This document shows, piece after piece, positions 4,288-20,803 of a DNA stretch of 31,769 nucleotides. Both the position numbers and the translations under genes were made by a program. The notes beneath the pieces are model-generated. The model was not told where the DNA came from, made no database searches, and saw nothing but the letters and a program-made list of their open reading frames with translations. Numbering within the stretch: the first letter of the stretch is position 1; the number at the start of each line of letters is the position of its first letter. This stretch comes from a virus. Where the stretch lies: the IMG/VR virus record IMGVR_UViG_3300017977_000101, positions 1-31,769 of that record. One strand, 5' to 3'.

Positions 4288-5406
4288 TTAATTCGTTTTT
4301 ACAGAAACAATTCTACCATTTACGCCTAATTTTCTTGGTAAAAACACAGGCATTAAATTTATTTCATTTGGAGTTAAGTTTGAAGTTATAGTGTAGATTG
4401 GATTAGATTCATCATCCCAATTTTGTTTTAAAAAATCAGGTAATTCATACATGGTTATTATTGAATTTTGGCTACCATCATTAGTAATTACTATTTTATA
4501 ATTTTTATTGGAATTCCAAGTGTAATTAAATGTTAATTGTTGTGAAGATAAAACACCTATAGTTCCATCATTACCAAACAACCCAATAATACCATAATCT
4601 CTAAAATATAACAATGTTTCCATTTGACTAAATTGTAGAGTTGAAGTTTCGTCAGTTGCTGTAGAACTAACTCCAGCCATAACTGTTGTTTGAAAATTTC
4701 TAACTATAAATTGTATAGTCTTATTGTCTCCTCTGTGAAAGTTTAGAAACTCAAATTTTAACCAATCTTGCCACTGAGAAGAAGCATTGGTAATACCTAA
4801 ACCTAAAGAGTCTCTAAATACTGATAAACTGCTATTATGTCTAATGTCATTACTTTGAGTATTTCCAATTGATAATATTTCACCTCCACTTCTTAAGTCT
4901 ACCCAATTTTGGACTTTAACAATACTAAATGTATTACTTCCAGATTGATTAGTTACAGTTAAATCAAAATTACCTGATGCACTACCTACTATTACATTAA
5001 CAACTAATGTATTTGAGTCTATAAATTGAACTGAATTAACTACAGTTTCTCCACTAATAGATACATTAGAATATTGATCAAAATAAGCTCCATTTAAAGT
5101 GAATGTATTTATGCCTCCATTTGAAATTATAACCTCAGGATTTACAACAACTGGAAGAGGAAAGTTAAGGATTGTTTGTGTTAAACTTGCTGGTGACTTA
5201 GAATTTTTAAAAAAATTTATAATTTTATTATTATTCTGATTTGAAATATTAATTAATAGTTGTTCTGCTTCATTTAATTGAGTATTTAAATCAATTTTAT
5301 TGGTTTGTAAAATTTCAAAAACAGACTCAACACTTCCATGTTCCTGAATAGCAATATCCCAAATTGTTTGGTTAGGTTTAGTATATGTTTTTTTTAAATC
5401 ACTCAT
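4288..5406 (-). CDS. Tail-associated protein with LysM-like N-terminus and Ig/IPT-like repeat
   Basis: 372 residues. Residues about 8-53 (NQTIWDIAIQEHGSVESVF...NEAEQLLI) match the shape of a LysM fold: 'T-WDIA--- G', a short helix, an 'N' turn and a final 'G/E--L-I' strand. Residues about 85-165 look like an IPT/TIG Ig-like domain (NGGINTFTLNGAYFD...SGNFDLTVTNQSGS). The rest is beta-rich and lectin-like (LSIGNTQSNDIRHNSSLS). It sits between the gp46-like baseplate protein and the papain-like enzyme. A surface-exposed baseplate decoration that binds murein or sugars is a fair guess. Confidence 0.5.
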   Translation of the reverse strand: MSDLKKTYTKPNQTIWDIAIQEHGSVESVFEILQTNKIDLNTQLNEAEQLLINISNQNNNKIINFFKNSKSPASLTQTILNFPLPVVVNPEVIISNGGINTFTLNGAYFDQYSNVSISGETVVNSVQFIDSNTLVVNVIVGSASGNFDLTVTNQSGSNTFSIVKVQNWVDLRSGGEILSIGNTQSNDIRHNSSLSVFRDSLGLGITNASSQWQDWLKFEFLNFHRGDNKTIQFIVRNFQTTVMAGVSSTATDETSTLQFSQMETLLYFRDYGIIGLFGNDGTIGVLSSQQLTFNYTWNSNKNYKIVITNDGSQNSIITMYELPDFLKQNWDDESNPIYTITSNLTPNEINLMPVFLPRKLGVNGRIVSVKTN

Positions 5407-7789: not shown

Positions 7790-9847
7790 TTAACTTATTG
7801 CTACTTCAAAATCTCTAACTGCACCTACTAATGCTTCAGATATCATCTCTTTAATTTTTAATTTAGACATATTAACAGAGGGAACTTTAATGATTAATTG
7901 ATTCACTAAGTTTTCAATTTTAGTGTCTATTACTTTTTTTTCAGCTGAAGCAAACCCAACTCCTTTATTTGAATTAGAAGATGATGATGTTGGATGTGTC
8001 CCTGCTTTTTTCGGTTTATTACTAGAAAAAGGCATGTCTTTATAACCTTTAGGTGAATTTTGACCCGTTTCTTGAGCCATTTTATCTGAAAAACTCATAG
8101 CCTTATCATCTACAGTATGCTCAACATTAACTGTAGCTTCAGGATTATCATCTCCAAAACCAAAAAATTCAGCAATTGAGTCAAACACTCCCATCACAGC
8201 GTCAACGATATCCGTTGCCCAACCCATCACATAATCCCACATATCACTAAACCATTGTACAATAGCATCTTTTGTCCCAGGAAATATTACATCTATCAAT
8301 TCTAATAACCAATTAAATGGATTCATATAAGTATTCCAATAATCCACCAAAATCCAAAACCATTCAGTTATAGAATCCCAAAAACCAGTAAAAAATTCTC
8401 CAAAACCTGACATACTATCAGTTAACCATACAAATCCAGCTACTAAAGCTCCTATTGCAACTATTATTAAACCGATAGGATTCATTGTTAGAGCAATATT
8501 AAGTAACCATTGTGCTGCAGTTGTTAATCCAGTCCATACTACTTGTAATCCCTTTAAGAAAATATCCTTCATCCTTAAGGCATTTTCTTTAAGCATTAAT
8601 CCTAAAGATTTATATGTTGATTTATTAAACAACATTTTTGCTTTATTAAGAGCAGTAAACAATGGTAACATTTGAGAAATTGTTAACCCCATTTTAGCCA
8701 TTAAATCAACATAAGGAACTAAGGGTTGTAACGAATCGAATAGTGAAATTTTAATATCACTCAACCAAGCACCAAATCTACTCATTGTAGATGTTGTTGT
8801 ATTTAACTTAATATCTGCTTGCTCATAAGCAGTATTAGTTCCTGTTATTGCAATGGTCATTTGTTCTTGAGTATCGATATTTTGCAATAAAGCTTGTGCT
8901 GCTAATTTATTTTCTTTACCAAATAATTTAGAAAGTAAAGCTGAATCTTCCTCAATAGGTTGCAGTAACCTTAATCTATCAGTAAAGCTTAGTGTTTTAT
9001 CAGATAGTTTTTCAACATCAATACCAGCACCTTGTAATTCCTGTTGCACATCTTTTGGTAAAAAACGTCCTTGATTTAATGATGCTAAAACATTTCTTAA
9101 TGCAATTCCTCCTTCAGCTCCTTTTTTACCAGCTTTATCTAAGGTTTCAATTGCACTAACCATTTCATTAAATTCAACTCCTGAAGCTTTAGCGTCTCCA
9201 CCAACATTTTGAATAGCAGCTTTTAATTGTGGTAACTCTGCAGAACCTTCTTTTGCTCCGGCCGCCATCATGTTCATCATGTTAGTCATTTCTTTCTGAG
9301 CCAATATTGGATCATCTAAAGAAACACTATATTGATTCATTGCTGTGGTCATAACTTCTACTGCTGCAGTAGTATCACCTCCCATAGTTTGTGACAATAT
9401 AGATACATTGTCTGCCATAGCACTTAATACTTCAGGGGTATTGGCTAATTCTGGCCCTAATTGGGATAATAATAATTTGTAAGTTTCAACAGAACTAGCG
9501 GCGTCACCTCCAAATTTTAAAGCATTGTCTCTAGCTTTATCTCCCAATTGGTCTAATTGATCACCTGTTAAACCTGTAATAGCAGATAAATCTGCCATAG
9601 ATTCTTCAAAGTTTAATCCTGGTTCTGTAATAGCATCAAAACCTTCTCCAATATTTCTGACATTATCAACAATTGATGAAAATTTGATTGAGTTTATTGA
9701 ATTTGATATTTTAGAAAAGGAATCTTTAGTGTTGCTTTCTAGAGTTTGAACAGTGTTTTCCAAACTAACAAAATTTTGTCGCAATTCTTTGATTGCAACA
9801 AAGATGTCTCCATTAATCTTAATATTAATATTTGCATTTTCAGACAT
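7790..9847 (-). CDS. Tail tape measure protein (TP901 type)
   Basis: 685 residues, the longest structural protein. A coiled-coil start (residues about 20-50) leads to a TP901-type core at about 75-350, with LNFEESMADLSAITGLTGDQL and LSQTMGGDTTAAVEVMT as hallmarks. Residues about 430-560 are hydrophobic with several Trp and Phe helices (PIGLIIVAIGALVAGFVWL), the part expected to enter the host membrane. The C-terminus is Ser/Asn-rich, then helical. At about 1.5 angstrom per residue this length suggests a tail of roughly 100 nm. The start ATG (9845-9847) lies back-to-back with a promoter and small gene on the other strand. Confidence 0.85.
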   Translation of the reverse strand: MSENANINIKINGDIFVAIKELRQNFVSLENTVQTLESNTKDSFSKISNSINSIKFSSIVDNVRNIGEGFDAITEPGLNFEESMADLSAITGLTGDQLDQLGDKARDNALKFGGDAASSVETYKLLLSQLGPELANTPEVLSAMADNVSILSQTMGGDTTAAVEVMTTAMNQYSVSLDDPILAQKEMTNMMNMMAAGAKEGSAELPQLKAAIQNVGGDAKASGVEFNEMVSAIETLDKAGKKGAEGGIALRNVLASLNQGRFLPKDVQQELQGAGIDVEKLSDKTLSFTDRLRLLQPIEEDSALLSKLFGKENKLAAQALLQNIDTQEQMTIAITGTNTAYEQADIKLNTTTSTMSRFGAWLSDIKISLFDSLQPLVPYVDLMAKMGLTISQMLPLFTALNKAKMLFNKSTYKSLGLMLKENALRMKDIFLKGLQVVWTGLTTAAQWLLNIALTMNPIGLIIVAIGALVAGFVWLTDSMSGFGEFFTGFWDSITEWFWILVDYWNTYMNPFNWLLELIDVIFPGTKDAIVQWFSDMWDYVMGWATDIVDAVMGVFDSIAEFFGFGDDNPEATVNVEHTVDDKAMSFSDKMAQETGQNSPKGYKDMPFSSNKPKKAGTHPTSSSSNSNKGVGFASAEKKVIDTKIENLVNQLIIKVPSVNMSKLKIKEMISEALVGAVRDFEVAIS

Positions 9848-9866: not shown

Positions 9867-10034
9867 ATGAAAACTTTAATACCTCTAGTTGTTTTTATTA
9901 TTTCAATGTATGTTTCAGTACACCTTATCAATTTTTCATTTAATGAATGGTATTCTTTGATTATAATGCACTTAATTGGTTTTATTGTTTGCTTCTTGTT
10001 TTCTTTTTTGGTTAGAAAAGAATATTTTAACTAA
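9867..10034 (+). CDS. Small two-helix membrane protein, probable moron
   Basis: 55 residues starting MKTLIPLVVFIISMYVSVHL and ending LVRKEYFN. Two hydrophobic segments (about 3-21 and 30-48) are separated by a short loop with N, E and W, and the C-terminus is basic, as expected for a membrane hairpin. It is on the opposite strand to the surrounding tail operon and has its own promoter. It fills exactly the 183-bp gap left between the chaperone frameshift product (ends 10031) and the tape measure (starts 9847). A separately expressed small membrane gene in a late operon suggests a lysogenic-conversion or superinfection-exclusion gene, but the sequence does not prove a function. A longer start at 9753 would lie inside the tape measure gene and upstream of the promoter, so I reject it. 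Confidence 0.6.
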   Translation: MKTLIPLVVFIISMYVSVHLINFSFNEWYSLIIMHLIGFIVCFLFSFLVRKEYFN

Positions 10035-10252
10035 TCTTTTTTCCCAAAAGCAGTAGCTAAAGCTTTTAACACTGCATTTTCCATTAAATCTCTATCAAAG
10101 TTTTTTATCCATAAAGCTTCAGCTAATAATTCAGCATAAAGCTCATCAGATATCAACCAAGGATTTATATTGAAACAACTTCTAATTAAAGCGCCTCCTT
10201 TAAGAATATCATCAACTCCAGCTTCAGTTGATATTAAGCTGGAGTTTACAGC
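10031..10252 (-). CDS. Tail assembly chaperone, C-terminal part made by -1 frameshift
   Basis: This frame has no start of its own near the 5' end. It is open from the slippery site to TAG at 10031-10033 and encodes 73 residues (AVNSSLISTEAGVDD... to ...ATAFGKKD). The fusion made by slippage would be 175 residues: 102 from the upstream frame plus 73. The arrangement is that of lambda G/GT and Mu gp41-type chaperones, where the frameshift product recruits the tape measure and the short form coats it. The next gene is the tape measure, as in those phages. The reading frame was confirmed by counting codons from 10252 to 10031. Confidence 0.8.
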   Translation of the reverse strand, partial: AVNSSLISTEAGVDDILKGGALIRSCFNINPWLISDELYAELLAEALWIKNFDRDLMENAVLKALATAFGKKD

Positions 10253-10258
10253 TTTTTT
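10216..10258 (-). promoter_or_regulatory. Programmed -1 ribosomal frameshift signal, tail chaperones
   Basis: On the minus strand the heptamer A AAA AAG (10252-10258) lies in the correct phase. It is followed by a 7-nt spacer holding the zero-frame stop TAA (10246-10248), then a perfect 9-bp hairpin CTCCAGCTT / AAGCTGGAG (10244-10236 with 10224-10216) around an 11-nt loop. Heptamer, spacer and stem match the standard -1 signal. Confidence 0.85.
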
Positions 10259-10557
10259 ATTTGTGCTTGCCTAACTTTAAATAGTGTTCCTAACTCTTTA
10301 ATAGCACTTAACTTAGCTTCATCATTCGTCTTAACAATTTCATTGCCACCTAACCAACAACTCTCAAACATAATATTACCACTTTTTACAGGATCAACCT
10401 CTGCAAATTTAGCAGCAAGTCCTACTATTTTTAGATCAGGTTTTTTAAAAAAAGCTGAAGCTTGATTTCCTTCATCATCTAAAGTAACATCTATTTGAAA
10501 TACGTCACCATGACGTTTTTTCCATTCTTTAATCTGTGCGGCTGTTATTTTTTCCAT
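10246..10557 (-). CDS. Tail assembly chaperone, short form
   Basis: 103 residues, helical at the end and mixed before. It lies between tail tube and tape measure, where the short tail-assembly chaperone is always found. The gene ends two codons after the slippery heptamer, so most ribosomes stop here and a minority make the longer form. The opening MEKITAAQIKEWKKRHGDVFQIDV and 'PDLKIVGLAAKF' are usual for Bacteroidota phage versions annotated as hypothetical. It acts in the cytoplasm during tail assembly and is not expected in the mature virion. Confidence 0.75.
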   Translation of the reverse strand: MEKITAAQIKEWKKRHGDVFQIDVTLDDEGNQASAFFKKPDLKIVGLAAKFAEVDPVKSGNIMFESCWLGGNEIVKTNDEAKLSAIKELGTLFKVRQAQIKKL

Positions 10558-10568
10558 TTTATTTTAAT

Positions 10569-10994
10569 TTAATTCCATTCAATATGGGAGGTGATTAATT
10601 CTAATTCTACTTCTATGACAGTATCTCCTTGTTTAATGTCTCTTTTGTTATTGGTAAACTCGCAGTTTCTTATAACATGGGTTACTAATCCGTCAGAACC
10701 TACAGGTAAAAATGAAATAATCATATCAAATGGAGGTACATCTTGAATACGTTTACCAATACCTAAAGCTTTAACAATTGCTTCTACTTCATAAGCATGT
10801 AAAGTAACCTTTGATGTAGCTTCATATTTGCCTCTACCTCTTGACACTGGAAATGCTCCAGCACCATAATTGTTTTGTTTATCTTGCTTATCTTCATAAG
10901 ATACAGCTGTTATTCCACTCACAGTTCTACCTAAGATGTTTATTTTAACATCTGCCCAACTGTGTCTAGTTCCGTTAATTAATGGTGTACTCAT
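10569..10994 (-). CDS. Tail tube protein (Mu gpM-like)
   Basis: 141 residues, the usual size for a tube subunit. The start (LINGTRHSWADVKINILGRTVSGITAVSYEDKQDKQNNYGAG) matches the beta-hairpin pattern of contractile-tail tube proteins of the XkdM / Mu gpM kind: 'W--v-v-i-G--i-G---i-Y---'. Residues about 118-138 (DIKQGDTVIEVELELITSHIEWN) form the closing strands. It follows the sheath gene by 12 bp. Confidence 0.75.
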   Translation of the reverse strand: MSTPLINGTRHSWADVKINILGRTVSGITAVSYEDKQDKQNNYGAGAFPVSRGRGKYEATSKVTLHAYEVEAIVKALGIGKRIQDVPPFDMIISFLPVGSDGLVTHVIRNCEFTNNKRDIKQGDTVIEVELELITSHIEWN

Positions 10995-11006: not shown

Positions 11007-12203
11007 TTAAAATGGATTTGTAAACCCAATAGTTACACTTATTTTTCTTGCAGTTCCTGTAGGTACTAATGAAAATTGTACCTGAAGCTCTGAAGATGAT
11101 AGAATGTTTTGATTAGGATCAACAAACACATCCATACTACTTATTTCTTCAGATTTTAACATTGTTTCTAAAGCTCTACGCCCATCAGCCTCATAAGACT
11201 TAACAATTTCAGGGCTTAATTTTCCAGTAGCTTGATCTATTAATACAGGAGAGTTTAATCTTGGTAATAATATTTCACGAATAGCTCTAACAGCTTTGTC
11301 AATAGTTCTATTGTTTTCAATAAAAGAAAAGTCATCTGTTAAACTGATACATGTTGGACTATCATTGAAATAAATCCCTGCTCTTCCAATGTGATTTCTA
11401 AAGAATATAGTCCCATTATCATTTAAAGTATCTAGCACACCGTCAGGAATACTAACTATTGGTGTATTTGAAATTCCTGCTGAAAGTAATGAACCTCCAT
11501 ATAAATTGAATTTTTCTACCCATGCAATGTTTTCATTTACAGAAGCTTTTGAAATTGCACCTAAGACAGTTCCAATAGCAGCATATTTTTCATAATACTT
11601 AGTTCCGCCAATAACTTTATTAGCTATAGATAATGATTGTCCAACCATTACACTAACACTTTTTGAGTTTTGGTTTCTGAAATTAAAACCTGCAGAATAA
11701 TCAAACCCAGGTCCTTCCAAAATAATTGAAACAGGTCTATGTGAAGTATATTCTTGATCCGCTAATGCTTGAGCTAAAGGTATAGCTGCAGTGACATTAG
11801 AAAAATCAGTAATTACCTGTGTAGGATTGAATGATACTCCAAGTTGTTTAACCTTACCTTGAGCTTCAATTAATAGTTTTTTAGCATAAGTGGAAAGTGA
11901 AGGATTAACCATATCAGTGACTGATACATTTTGTGACACAATCATTAGGTACAAATCACCATCAGGGTTAATTCTAAAATACTCGTTGATATGTTCATAG
12001 ACTAATACCTTGTTTGCTGTATCATAGTTCTCATCTAATCCCAAAGTAATAGCATCTTTAATTCCTTTAAGTCTATATACTGTGTCAAGTTGAGCACCAG
12101 CAACCACAACTACACCTTGTGTAATTAGTCCTGATATCATATCTCCAGCAGGGTTAGTTCTTCCTAACCCTCCGTTTGTTTTGGTTATAATTACATCATT
12201 CAT
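11007..12203 (-). CDS. Tail sheath protein (Mu gpL-like)
   Basis: 398 residues, within the range of contractile sheath proteins. The start NDVIITKTNGGLGRTNPAGDMISGLI, the FRNQNSKSVSVMVGQSL core near residue 170 and the C-terminal 'TARKISVTIGFTNPF' are shared with sheath proteins of Bacteroidota contractile phages (DUF2586-like). The C-terminal strand is what links neighbouring subunits in other sheaths. It overlaps the preceding gene by 1 bp and precedes the tube gene. Together these make the phage a contractile-tailed (myovirus-type) virion. Confidence 0.75.
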   Translation of the reverse strand: MNDVIITKTNGGLGRTNPAGDMISGLITQGVVVVAGAQLDTVYRLKGIKDAITLGLDENYDTANKVLVYEHINEYFRINPDGDLYLMIVSQNVSVTDMVNPSLSTYAKKLLIEAQGKVKQLGVSFNPTQVITDFSNVTAAIPLAQALADQEYTSHRPVSIILEGPGFDYSAGFNFRNQNSKSVSVMVGQSLSIANKVIGGTKYYEKYAAIGTVLGAISKASVNENIAWVEKFNLYGGSLLSAGISNTPIVSIPDGVLDTLNDNGTIFFRNHIGRAGIYFNDSPTCISLTDDFSFIENNRTIDKAVRAIREILLPRLNSPVLIDQATGKLSPEIVKSYEADGRRALETMLKSEEISSMDVFVDPNQNILSSSELQVQFSLVPTGTARKISVTIGFTNPF

Positions 12204-13919: not shown

Positions 13920-14945
13920 TTAAACTACAACAGAGTATACAGCTCCAATTCCTTTGTTTCTTATAGGCATTGCCAAACCTCTCATTTGGAAACCATAAAC
14001 ATCTCCTCTTTCTTCTGGATCTTTTAATTTAGCAAACATGTCAACAGTACCTTGACAACGCATTACTTCATTTTTTTGAAATGCAACAGAGCAGATAGTA
14101 TCTGTTGTTGGTGCAGGCGCAGCTCCATAAGCAACTTTTACACCTGTAGCTTTATTGTATACAGGCATTCTTTTGGTGGCTAATGTGTATATTTTAAAAC
14201 CTCCATAAGTGCTTTCATTACTAAAGATAGTCTTATATAAAGTTAAATCTTGTTTTCTTAAATGGTTTTTATGTTTAGTAGATAACACAAGTATTCTTCC
14301 TTCTGCTCCAACTTCTGCATCATCAAATGCAGTTTCTAAATCAAGAATATCTTGAAATGTTAACATTTTATGACCAGTTCCGTCATCAGCTCCTGATGTT
14401 TGTAAAACAGGCGTGTAATTTCCATTTGATGATGGCGCAAAAGCGTGAATAGCTTTTTCCATATACTTCATTCTTAATGACATTCTGTGACCGTATAATA
14501 CTGAAGTACGTTTATCATAACTTAACTCTGCAATTTCAATATTTCTAATTAAAGTATTTTCAGTATCATAAGTGTCTAATGTTAATGAAATAGGCGTGTC
14601 ATTTCTCTGAGCTACTGGAATTGGATATGTTGAGTTATTAATTAACACATTTGGATTAACTCCTGCTTCAGCTAAATGTATAACGTCATTTTCAACAAAT
14701 GCACTCATATCTCTAGCCTCCTTTAAAAACATATCATCTCCATAAAAACCTTCCATTAAGTCAGGAAGCCAAATTTCTTTATTTAACCCTGCAAATAAGG
14801 AACCCTGAACTGCTGGTGTCATTAAACTTACTCCAGTAATAGTTCCTCCAACTGCTAATACAGGTAGTCCTGTTGAAGCTGATACTGCTATACTAAATAG
14901 TGATACTGCTACTAATGCGAAAAATGTATTTAAAAATCGTTTCAT
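13920..14945 (-). CDS. Major capsid protein with hydrophobic N-terminus
   Basis: 341 residues. It follows the protease/scaffold gene by 19 bp and has the layout of capsid proteins from Bacteroidota Mu-like phages (DLMEGFYGDDMFLKEARDM, FVENDVIHLAEAGVNPNVLINN, RNIEIAELSYDKRTSVLYGH, LRMKYMEKAIHAF). It is unusual in beginning with two hydrophobic stretches, about 5-24 and 28-46, the first like a signal peptide with VSAST at its end. I take these as a removable assembly segment rather than a secretion signal. The gene is expected to be the most strongly expressed late gene. Confidence 0.75.
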   Translation of the reverse strand: MKRFLNTFFALVAVSLFSIAVSASTGLPVLAVGGTITGVSLMTPAVQGSLFAGLNKEIWLPDLMEGFYGDDMFLKEARDMSAFVENDVIHLAEAGVNPNVLINNSTYPIPVAQRNDTPISLTLDTYDTENTLIRNIEIAELSYDKRTSVLYGHRMSLRMKYMEKAIHAFAPSSNGNYTPVLQTSGADDGTGHKMLTFQDILDLETAFDDAEVGAEGRILVLSTKHKNHLRKQDLTLYKTIFSNESTYGGFKIYTLATKRMPVYNKATGVKVAYGAAPAPTTDTICSVAFQKNEVMRCQGTVDMFAKLKDPEERGDVYGFQMRGLAMPIRNKGIGAVYSVVV

Positions 14946-18389: not shown

Positions 18390-19544
18390 ATGGCAAAAAA
18401 AAGACCAAACAAACTGTTAGATAAACTTATAGTTTCTAATACATCAAGAGCAAGAAAAGACATAAACAATTGGCGTGTTGCTCTACAACAAGCAGAAAAT
18501 GTTGATAATCCTAAAAGGGTATTATTATATAGCCTATATGATGAATTAGTAATTGACGCTAATTTATCAGCAGAAATTCAAAAAAGAATACTTGCAGTTA
18601 GAGGTAATCAATTTTCAGTTTTCAATATAAAAGATGGTAGTACTGATAATGAAAAAACAGCTTTATTAACTAAACCTTGGTTTTATAATTTCATTGAGTT
18701 AGCAATGGAAAGTATATTTTGGGGGCACTCTCTCATTCAAATAGGAGATTTAATTGAAGGAGAAATATCAAATGTTCAGCTTGTTAATAGAAAGCATGTA
18801 ATACCTGAAAAAGGATTGTTTATTTATAGACAAAATGATGAAAAAGGAGTGTTTTACAGAGAAGATAAACAATATGTTAATTGGTTGTTAGAAGTTGGAG
18901 AAAAAAAAGACTTAGGTTTACTAAATAAAACATCTCCTCATGTTCTATACAAAAGATTTGCAAACAGTGCTTGGTCTGAATACTGTGAGATTTTTGGTAT
19001 GCCTTTGAGATATGGTAAAACAAACGTTAAAGACACAGAGAGTTTAAATCGCATGGAAAACATGATGATTAATATGGGAGCGGCAGCTTATGCTGTAATT
19101 GATGAGGATGAGGAAATAAATTTTGTACAAGCTCAAGGTGGTAAAGGTGAAGTTTATGATAATTTAATAAACAGAGCTAATTCTGAAATATCAAAGTTAA
19201 TTAATGGAGCTGTTATTGGTGAGGCTTCATCTGGAGGTAGTCGTTCTAAAGAAGAGGTTGGAGAAAGAACTGGTAATATGATTACTGAAGCAGATAAACA
19301 ATTTTTAGAAGGCTATATTAATGAGACTTTAATTCCTAGGCTAATATTATTGGGATATCCTTTTAATGGTTTTGCTTTTAGATTTGAAAAAAGTAAAGAT
19401 ATTAAAAGCTTATGGGAAATAACTCAAGGCTTATTAACCCATTATGATGTGGATGAAGATTTTATTACCAAAACATTTGGCATTCCAGTTTCTAAAAAGA
19501 AAGAAGTTGCACCTAAATTGTCTGGTAGAGGTTTTTTCGACTAA
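18390..19544 (+). CDS. Portal protein (DUF935, Mu gp29-like)
   Basis: 384 residues, shorter than Mu gp29 (about 510). The start DKLIVSNTSRARKDINNWRVALQQAEN, the 'LYDELVIDANLSAEIQKRILAVRGNQF' core, the clip-like 'NRKHVIPEKGLFIYRQ' and the C-terminal 'GEASSGGSRSKEEVGERTGNMITEADKQFLEGYINETLIPRLILLGY' match DUF935. It forms the 12-fold ring through which DNA enters the head. Its last codons hold a slippery heptamer (19532-19538), so a fraction of ribosomes should continue into MuF. Most ribosomes stop at TAA 19542-19544. Confidence 0.85.
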   Translation: MAKKRPNKLLDKLIVSNTSRARKDINNWRVALQQAENVDNPKRVLLYSLYDELVIDANLSAEIQKRILAVRGNQFSVFNIKDGSTDNEKTALLTKPWFYNFIELAMESIFWGHSLIQIGDLIEGEISNVQLVNRKHVIPEKGLFIYRQNDEKGVFYREDKQYVNWLLEVGEKKDLGLLNKTSPHVLYKRFANSAWSEYCEIFGMPLRYGKTNVKDTESLNRMENMMINMGAAAYAVIDEDEEINFVQAQGGKGEVYDNLINRANSEISKLINGAVIGEASSGGSRSKEEVGERTGNMITEADKQFLEGYINETLIPRLILLGYPFNGFAFRFEKSKDIKSLWEITQGLLTHYDVDEDFITKTFGIPVSKKKEVAPKLSGRGFFD

Positions 19545-19563
19545 GCCCCCTAAATTTGGGGGC
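19532..19563 (+). promoter_or_regulatory. Programmed -1 frameshift signal joining portal and MuF
   Basis: Heptamer T TTT TTC (19532-19538) lies in portal phase. It is followed by a 6-nt spacer GACTAA that includes the portal stop, then hairpin GCCCCC (19545-19550) / GGGGGC (19558-19563) with 7-nt loop TAAATTT. After a -1 slip the frame is open (R L S P L N, then MuF). The phase and spacer length are canonical. GC-rich stems are rare in this AT-rich phage. Confidence 0.8.
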
Positions 19564-20803
19564 AAACTTGGATAATCTATATTATGGTTGTTGTCATCAC
19601 AGTTTTTCTAACTTAGATCTTTTAGAATTAAAACTATTTAAAGTCTTTAATCTTAAATATAATAAAGATAAAGTTATAAATGAAGCTAAATCAAACCAAA
19701 AAATCACTTCAGAGGAATTATTTAAAAACACAAATAAAACTTTAACTCTAGCTTTAAATAATGTGTATCCAGTTAAATTTGAAGATAAACATTTTGAGTT
19801 AATTAATAAGTTAGAAAGAAACATAGGAGAGTTTTCAGTATTTAGAAGTTCAAATGTGTTGTTAAATTTAAAAAACAAAACAAAAGAGGAACAAAATGCT
19901 ATACTTAACGTTTATGAACGTCATCTAAAAGTTGAATCAGATTATGTTACAAAAGTAATTAGAAATGCTAAAAAGTTTTTAAAATATCAAGAAGATGCCG
20001 ACTTATATCCTAATTTAGAATATTTACCAAGTAGTTCTGTTAATAAAAGACAAGAACATCAAGAGCTGTATGGCATTATTAAACCTATAAATGACCCTTT
20101 TTGGCAGAATTATTTACCACCAAATGGATGGGGGTGTCAATGTAGAACCAGACAAACAGATAAAGCAGAAACTAAAATTAAAATACCTAAAGTTAAAATT
20201 CCAAATGGGATAACTGGTAATGCAGTTTTAAGTCAAACTATTTTTACCAATAATCATAATTCATATAAACCTTTTAAGGTTGATGTAGATAACAGAGTTT
20301 TTCAAAGTAAAGTGAAAAAAGAATTTGAACAATTAAAATTAAAAACACCATTTAAAAACAAACCTGATTATAAAGCTAAAAATGGAAATACTATATATGT
20401 TCACACTTTTTGTGATTTTTCGGATTTAAATTCAAACTATAAAGTTGCAAAATTATTAGTTAATAAAATAGAAAACCTTCATATTAAAATAAGACCACAT
20501 GCTAATAATGTTAAAACAAATATTGGAGATAAAAAAACAAGTAATCCTGAATACTTAATAAATGGAGTATATGCTGATTTAAAAGAATTAAATAGTTATA
20601 ATGTTAATAATAGATTTTCATCAGCTAAAAAACAAGGGTGCAAAATAGTTGTTTTTAAAATATTAAATAAAAAAACAGAAATAACAGATGTTTTAAATTC
20701 AATTAAAGGGAAAATTAAACAAAGAAAAAGCAAGGTTTTTGATAGAATTTTTATTGTTAAAGGAGATACTGTTGTTGACTTTAAGCCAAAAAGAGTTGAA
20801 TAA
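19556..20803 (+). CDS. MuF head morphogenesis protein with C-terminal toxin-like domain, made via -1 frameshift
   Basis: 415 residues from the first non-ATG start (TTG 19556). The open frame reaches back to the frameshift site at 19538, so 421 residues come from this frame and the portal fusion would be 804 residues. Translated from that TTG the protein contains no methionine after the first residue, so no ATG start is available. Residues about 1-210 are MuF: NLDNLYYGCCHH at the start and PPNGWGCQCRTRQ near 195, which is the family's Gly-Trp-Gly-Cys-x-Cys motif. Residues about 265-415 look like a CdiA-CT tRNase or related nuclease (NPEYLINGVYADLKE, then IVVFKIL, and FDRIFIVKGD near the end). 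In several phages MuF proteins carry polymorphic toxins in the C-terminus. TTG starts at 19556 (inside the hairpin) and 19568 remain as alternatives. Confidence 0.75.
   Translation: MGANLDNLYYGCCHHSFSNLDLLELKLFKVFNLKYNKDKVINEAKSNQKITSEELFKNTNKTLTLALNNVYPVKFEDKHFELINKLERNIGEFSVFRSSNVLLNLKNKTKEEQNAILNVYERHLKVESDYVTKVIRNAKKFLKYQEDADLYPNLEYLPSSSVNKRQEHQELYGIIKPINDPFWQNYLPPNGWGCQCRTRQTDKAETKIKIPKVKIPNGITGNAVLSQTIFTNNHNSYKPFKVDVDNRVFQSKVKKEFEQLKLKTPFKNKPDYKAKNGNTIYVHTFCDFSDLNSNYKVAKLLVNKIENLHIKIRPHANNVKTNIGDKKTSNPEYLINGVYADLKELNSYNVNNRFSSAKKQGCKIVVFKILNKKTEITDVLNSIKGKIKQRKSKVFDRIFIVKGDTVVDFKPKRVE

Follow-up and report, generated by a model that had tools for sequence, protein, structure and literature searches.

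The window analyzed here, a 31.8-kb viral record of 29% GC from a Mu-like phage whose hosts are probably Bacteroidota-type bacteria, carries a tail assembly chaperone gene that, judged from its sequence and that of its relatives, very probably makes a short and a long protein by -1 ribosomal frameshifting of the lambda G/GT type. An earlier note on this DNA had proposed such a device, and the proposal is borne out by the chaperone fold, the gene order, the conserved -1 extension, the slip site, and a compensated hairpin. Frameshifting of tail chaperones is textbook knowledge elsewhere; here it appears to be nearly universal in the relatives examined, yet it is unannotated in the records checked. 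The open-licence literature held no mention of a tail or MuF frameshift in Winoviridae, in Hankyphage, or in MuF genes.

Gene neighborhood and identity of the short form

The window carries a Mu-type transposase, a Mu-like portal, a DUF2586 sheath, and a tape measure gene. Its closest named relatives are Winoviridae (Peternella_1, fF4, and the pippi/FPSV phages), and its sheath, portal, and chaperone are homologous to those of the Winoviridae. The tail genes lie on the minus strand in the order sheath, tube, chaperone, tape measure, which is matched by the annotation of the relative L008. The sheath gene (11007..12203; PF10758, E = 2e-64; phrog_907) marks a contractile tail, a tail tube-like gene (10569..10994; phrog_4579 tail protein, E = 6e-21) sits just upstream of the chaperone (10246..10557), and the tape measure gene (7790..9847; phrog_28, E = 1.7e-49; PhageMin_Tail, E = 1.6e-24) lies downstream of it. 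Elsewhere on this strand, a major-capsid-like open reading frame (13920-14945) begins with a hydrophobic, signal-peptide-like N-terminal stretch (MKRFLNTFFALVAVSLFSIAVSAS), and its true start may lie further in.

The 103-amino-acid zero-frame product falls in phrog_19076 (E = 1.8e-26), a family listed as of unknown function. Its AlphaFold model (pLDDT 93.8) has as its best PDB match 3FGX (Z 9.8 over 90 residues, 3.8 A), followed in ranks 2 and 3 by the HK97 tail assembly chaperone 2OB9 (Z 6.3) and YqbN 3KLU (Z 5.6). Foldseek also matched the model to 3FGX (E 4e-4), and an independent sequence-profile search reached the same entry at E 0.003 (0.03 when the alignment was slightly smaller). All three structures are phage tail assembly chaperones (PMC9603447, citing Pell et al. 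2013). Taken singly, a Z score of about 6 may arise by chance, yet the best match stands clear and the top three belong to one family. By its predicted structure, then, the short form is a tail assembly chaperone fold, like those of HK97 2OB9, YqbN 3KLU, and RBSTP2171 3FGX, which are proteins of other phage groups with 7-17% identity to it. The assignment would give a function to phrog_19076, which is common in Bacteroidota prophages.

The short form and the extension were modeled separately, with phage-collection sequences left out of the alignments used for structure prediction. The extension is predicted to form a helical fold (pLDDT 93.2). Neither protein segment matched a Pfam family at cut-off, and weak matches to DUF6890/phrog_7050 were confined to the extension's final 30 residues. 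In a BFVD fold search with the extension, no entry reached E <= 0.001, and all matches were small phage proteins without a name.

Reading frames and slip site

Read on the minus strand, the zero-frame gene ends ATA AAA AAG CTG TAA. The slippery heptamer A_AAA_AAG (10252..10258) is in the correct register, with AAA AAG as zero-frame codons, and the stop TAA (10246..10248) comes one sense codon (CTG) past it, as the earlier note had read the site. The -1 frame is open for 79 codons between the final -1-frame stop upstream of the slip site (TAG, 10271..10273), which bounds the region available for slipping, and the TAG at 10031..10033. A -1 shift is possible only within a 22-nt interval, and exactly one XXXYYYZ heptamer lies inside it. 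The extension (10031..10252) comprises the 73 codons plus TAG that had been claimed, and joined to 102 residues of the zero frame it gives a product of 175 amino acids. At the local base composition, 71 open -1 codons past the stop would arise by chance with P ~0.004.

The extension was also said to lack a start of its own, and this reading agrees with the sequence: along the 79 open codons of the -1 frame, the earliest candidate among ATG, GTG, and TTG is a TTG at codon index 38, and ATG first appears at index 62. Comparison of the window with two close relatives indicates purifying selection on the extension (dN 0.38-0.43, dS 1.1-2.4, dN/dS ~0.16-0.38); its helical core is conserved and contains P, L, and an acidic-aromatic motif.

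The arrangement resembles lambda G/GT in the position of the gene between tail tube and tape measure, in a -1 shift close to where the short form ends, and in the out-of-frame C-terminal extension. It differs in that the window is from a contractile-tail, Mu-like phage and has AAAAAAG with a clear 3' hairpin; the lambda heptamer, GGGAAAG, is that of fF4. With phage Mu/FluMu gp41 the window shares the equivalent gene position in a Mu-like structural module and a frameshifted extension, but the Mu tail chaperone uses a -2 shift (PMC5009743; PMC2628397). The frame that a -2 shift would reach, the +1 frame, closes here after 8 codons. The earlier label of a Mu gp41-type device thus holds for gene and position and fails for the shift. 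E. coli dnaX offers a further parallel in its A_AAA_AAG heptamer and 3' hairpin, though a clear Shine-Dalgarno-like stimulator is lacking here. Reading of the window found no such element 5' of the slip site, and a Shine-Dalgarno stimulator is not supported for it, which fits the report that Bacteroidia ribosomes do not recognize Shine-Dalgarno sequences (PMC9976891).

Conservation among relatives

Profile-based pattern searches added 138 loci and brought the total, with the window, to 146; grouping at 90% DNA identity reduced this to 110. The search patterns came from four closer sequences, since the full diverse alignment (A1) yielded none that could be used. The nonredundant loci are mostly from Bacteroidota, and the counts below are raw, with shared ancestry ignored. 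An alignment of related phages, suggested earlier as a check, supports the frameshift: the -1 extension occurs in all 110 loci, mostly at a length of 50-80 codons (2-3 contigs end inside it), and the zero frame ends in NNA AAN NNN stop in 103 of them (AAG 69, AAC 21, AAA 10, AAT 3). A_AAN thus stands exactly one sense codon ahead of the stop in 103/110 loci, against a background of 4.1% in the same genes.

A lost base splitting one reading frame, whether by sequencing error or by gene decay, could have been suspected from the homopolymer at the junction and from the window being a metagenome contig. The same split, however, recurs in about 100 distinct loci and in isolates, among them Peternella_1, fF4, Capnocytophaga, Bacteroides gallinarum, and Flavobacterium davisii. 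Because the split is conserved, we regard error or decay as refuted, with a probability close to nil.

The P-site codon is AAA, giving A_AAA_AAN, in 60/110 loci. In about 40% it is GTA, GAA, ACA, GCA, TCA, or ATA, and the site is a bare A_AAN tetramer with no canonical heptamer; at such non-AAA P sites good re-pairing is possible for the A-site tRNA only. Slipping on a lone A_AAG is already known (PMC5009743), so these sites represent a variant and not a new principle. They also bear on slippage of RNA polymerase, by which the long form would be read from mRNAs that differ by one base. Six consecutive A residues at the site in a 29% GC genome, and an A7 run in a few relatives, would suit that mechanism. 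Yet the relatives with GTA AAG, GAA AAG, or ACA AAG have only AAA or AAAA at the same place, together with the extension, and fF4 uses GGGAAAG; such short A runs are not expected to suffice. The codon register and the stop one codon on, moreover, make sense only for ribosomes. We consider polymerase slippage very unlikely.

Alternatively, ribosomes might re-initiate once past the zero-frame stop and translate the extension as a small gene in its own right. The Winoviridae Peternella_1 and fF4 have a homologous chaperone with a -1 extension and an unannotated frameshift; the Peternella_1 annotation leaves the extension blank, and in the GenBank record of fF4 (L007, 8363-8506) it is a separate 47-amino-acid hypothetical protein (QHJ72924), just the kind of reading frame that re-initiation would call for. 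A similar 42-amino-acid reading frame occurs in Flavobacterium phage lotta8-1, and an ATGA overlap is found in L138 and L140. Against this, 75/110 loci have no ATG, GTG, or TTG able to start the extension early, the TTG and ATG starts in the window would drop a large conserved part of it, and the fixed A_AAN site would be left unexplained. Re-initiation accordingly appears to us less probable even than polymerase slippage. Under ribosomal frameshifting, the extension, so far a blank or a stray small reading frame, would become the second half of a known device.

Four relatives (L138, L140, L144, and L146) have no A_AAN slip site. In L138 and L140 (both at 4288) the zero frame ends CTATGA, with the ATG in the -1 frame and overlapped by the stop, and a restart could have replaced frameshifting there. 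In L112, a Tannerellaceae contig, the -1 extension lacks a stop and from 4280 continues in frame into the tape measure gene for 1176 codons, which may reflect either a fused chaperone-tape measure protein or an assembly error. Upstream of the site, a Shine-Dalgarno-like motif is present in 29/110 loci. In the 57 relatives with Glu at the seventh codon before the stop, GAG outnumbers GAA 43:14, versus 331:562 elsewhere in the same genes (p 1e-8, shared ancestry ignored); this preference could reflect a 5' stimulator or shared ancestry.

Stimulatory hairpin

The slip site is followed by a hairpin (10214..10246, minus strand) with an 11-bp stem (AACTCCAGCTT/AAGCTGGAGTT), an 11-nt loop, and a predicted stability of -16.0 kcal/mol. 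A 9-bp hairpin after a 7-nt spacer had been described before; the hairpin itself stands, but its stem is two pairs longer. Measured to the 11-bp stem, the spacer shrinks to 5 nt; the 7 nt given earlier apply to the 9-bp core. Its z score against dinucleotide shuffles is -4.38, with 0/200 shuffles equally stable, and when -1-frame codons were shuffled synonymously, keeping the protein, again 0/200 matched it (p <= 0.005). The extensions of closer relatives can be aligned gap-free, and there the hairpin occupies identical columns with different letters. Changes on both sides were seen in 8/11 stem pairs (10 sequences), and stem covariation was 0.37, versus 0.23 in shuffles (0/500) and 0.12-0.26 when the stem was slid. 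L156, whose extension is 48% identical, keeps 10 pairs; one C-G pair has become U-A there by a double change, and another has become U-G. These substitutions indicate that the hairpin is maintained by compensatory changes in close relatives.

Structure varies with the type of site. Synonymous shuffles gave a mean z of -1.8 for the 36 A_AAA_AAG sites, with 47% at p <= 0.05, and at AAC sites structure appeared in a longer, 66-nt stretch, with 75% at p <= 0.05. At 42 nt, GTA- and GAA-type sites had little hairpin excess by synonymous shuffles and ACA-type sites had no local excess (mean z +0.5); many relatives of these three types have no strong hairpin within 45 nt. Given the shuffle and covariation support in close relatives and the scant structure at GTA, GAA, and ACA sites, the hairpin genuinely belongs to the window's signal, yet it is no constant of the family. 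The variants across the family, which differ in the A site (AAG/AAC/AAA/AAT), in the P site (AAA/GTA/GAA/ACA), and in having or lacking a hairpin, provide ready material for testing -1 slipping on ribosomes that work without Shine-Dalgarno pairing.

Proposed mechanism

In the model that we favor, most ribosomes would stop at TAA and release the 103-amino-acid short form. The remaining minority, stalled by the downstream hairpin while lysine tRNA occupies AAA AAG, would slip back one base onto AAA AAA and read 73 more codons, yielding the 175-amino-acid long form. In lambda, the tape measure protein binds both an abundant short form and a rarer long form, whose extension brings in the tube protein (PMC5009743). 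By that analogy, many short and few long forms would coat the tape measure protein here, the extension would recruit tail tube subunits, and both forms would then leave. The slipping itself, its rate, and the binding partners are what we infer from these comparisons. On the host side, all lysine tRNA genes found in F. davisii, the host of the related prophage L141, are of the UUU type (four copies), and no tRNA-Lys(CUU) was found in that genome. In E. coli, A_AAG slips where one UUU tRNA alone reads AAG (PMC5009743), and a slip-prone AAG is therefore plausible in the host of this relative.

A second candidate frameshift at the portal-MuF junction

A second signal, on the plus strand, lies at the end of the portal gene (18390-19544; PF06074, E 3e-75) and consists of T_TTT_TTC, a 6-nt spacer, and a GCCCCC/GGGGGC hairpin (19532..19563). 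The gene ends GGT TTT TTC GAC TAA, followed by GCCCCC TAAATTT GGGGGC, and 419 codons of its -1 frame are open, a stretch that takes in a MuF-like gene, the whole region spanning 18390-20803. The sole start candidates near the MuF-like gene are two TTG codons, one of them within the hairpin. Most of the roughly 30 relatives that we read have T_TTT_TTC with a GC hairpin, A_AAT_TTT, or an A run at the end of the portal gene, a Hankyphage-type Bacteroides phage included; among them L224, L225, and L245 lack such a signal. From these sequences the portal-MuF junction looks like a programmed -1 fusion. The portal-MuF arrangement was noted in L149, L151, L226, and L228-L251.

The earlier note had considered two -1 frameshifts in one phage uncommon. 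Comparative sequence from this phage and many relatives supports two shifts, and uncommon they remain, but as a class they are not unique: SPP1 has a +1 shift in its tail tube gene and a -1 shift in its chaperone gene (PMC6316719), and Listeria phages PSA, A118, and A500 likewise have two (PMC5009743). We lean toward the view that a group of Bacteroidota Mu-like phages combines two -1 shifts, one for the long chaperone and one for portal-MuF, with the tail shift often on a bare A_AAN one codon before the stop and in hosts without Shine-Dalgarno pairing. If real, the portal-MuF shift could determine how many copies there are of a minor head protein of which an SPP1 capsid contains one or two (PMC5576092). 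The MuF-like protein (19556-20803) has a C-terminal match to CdiA_C (PF18451, E 7.5e-8), in which it resembles the MuF polymorphic toxins of temperate phages.
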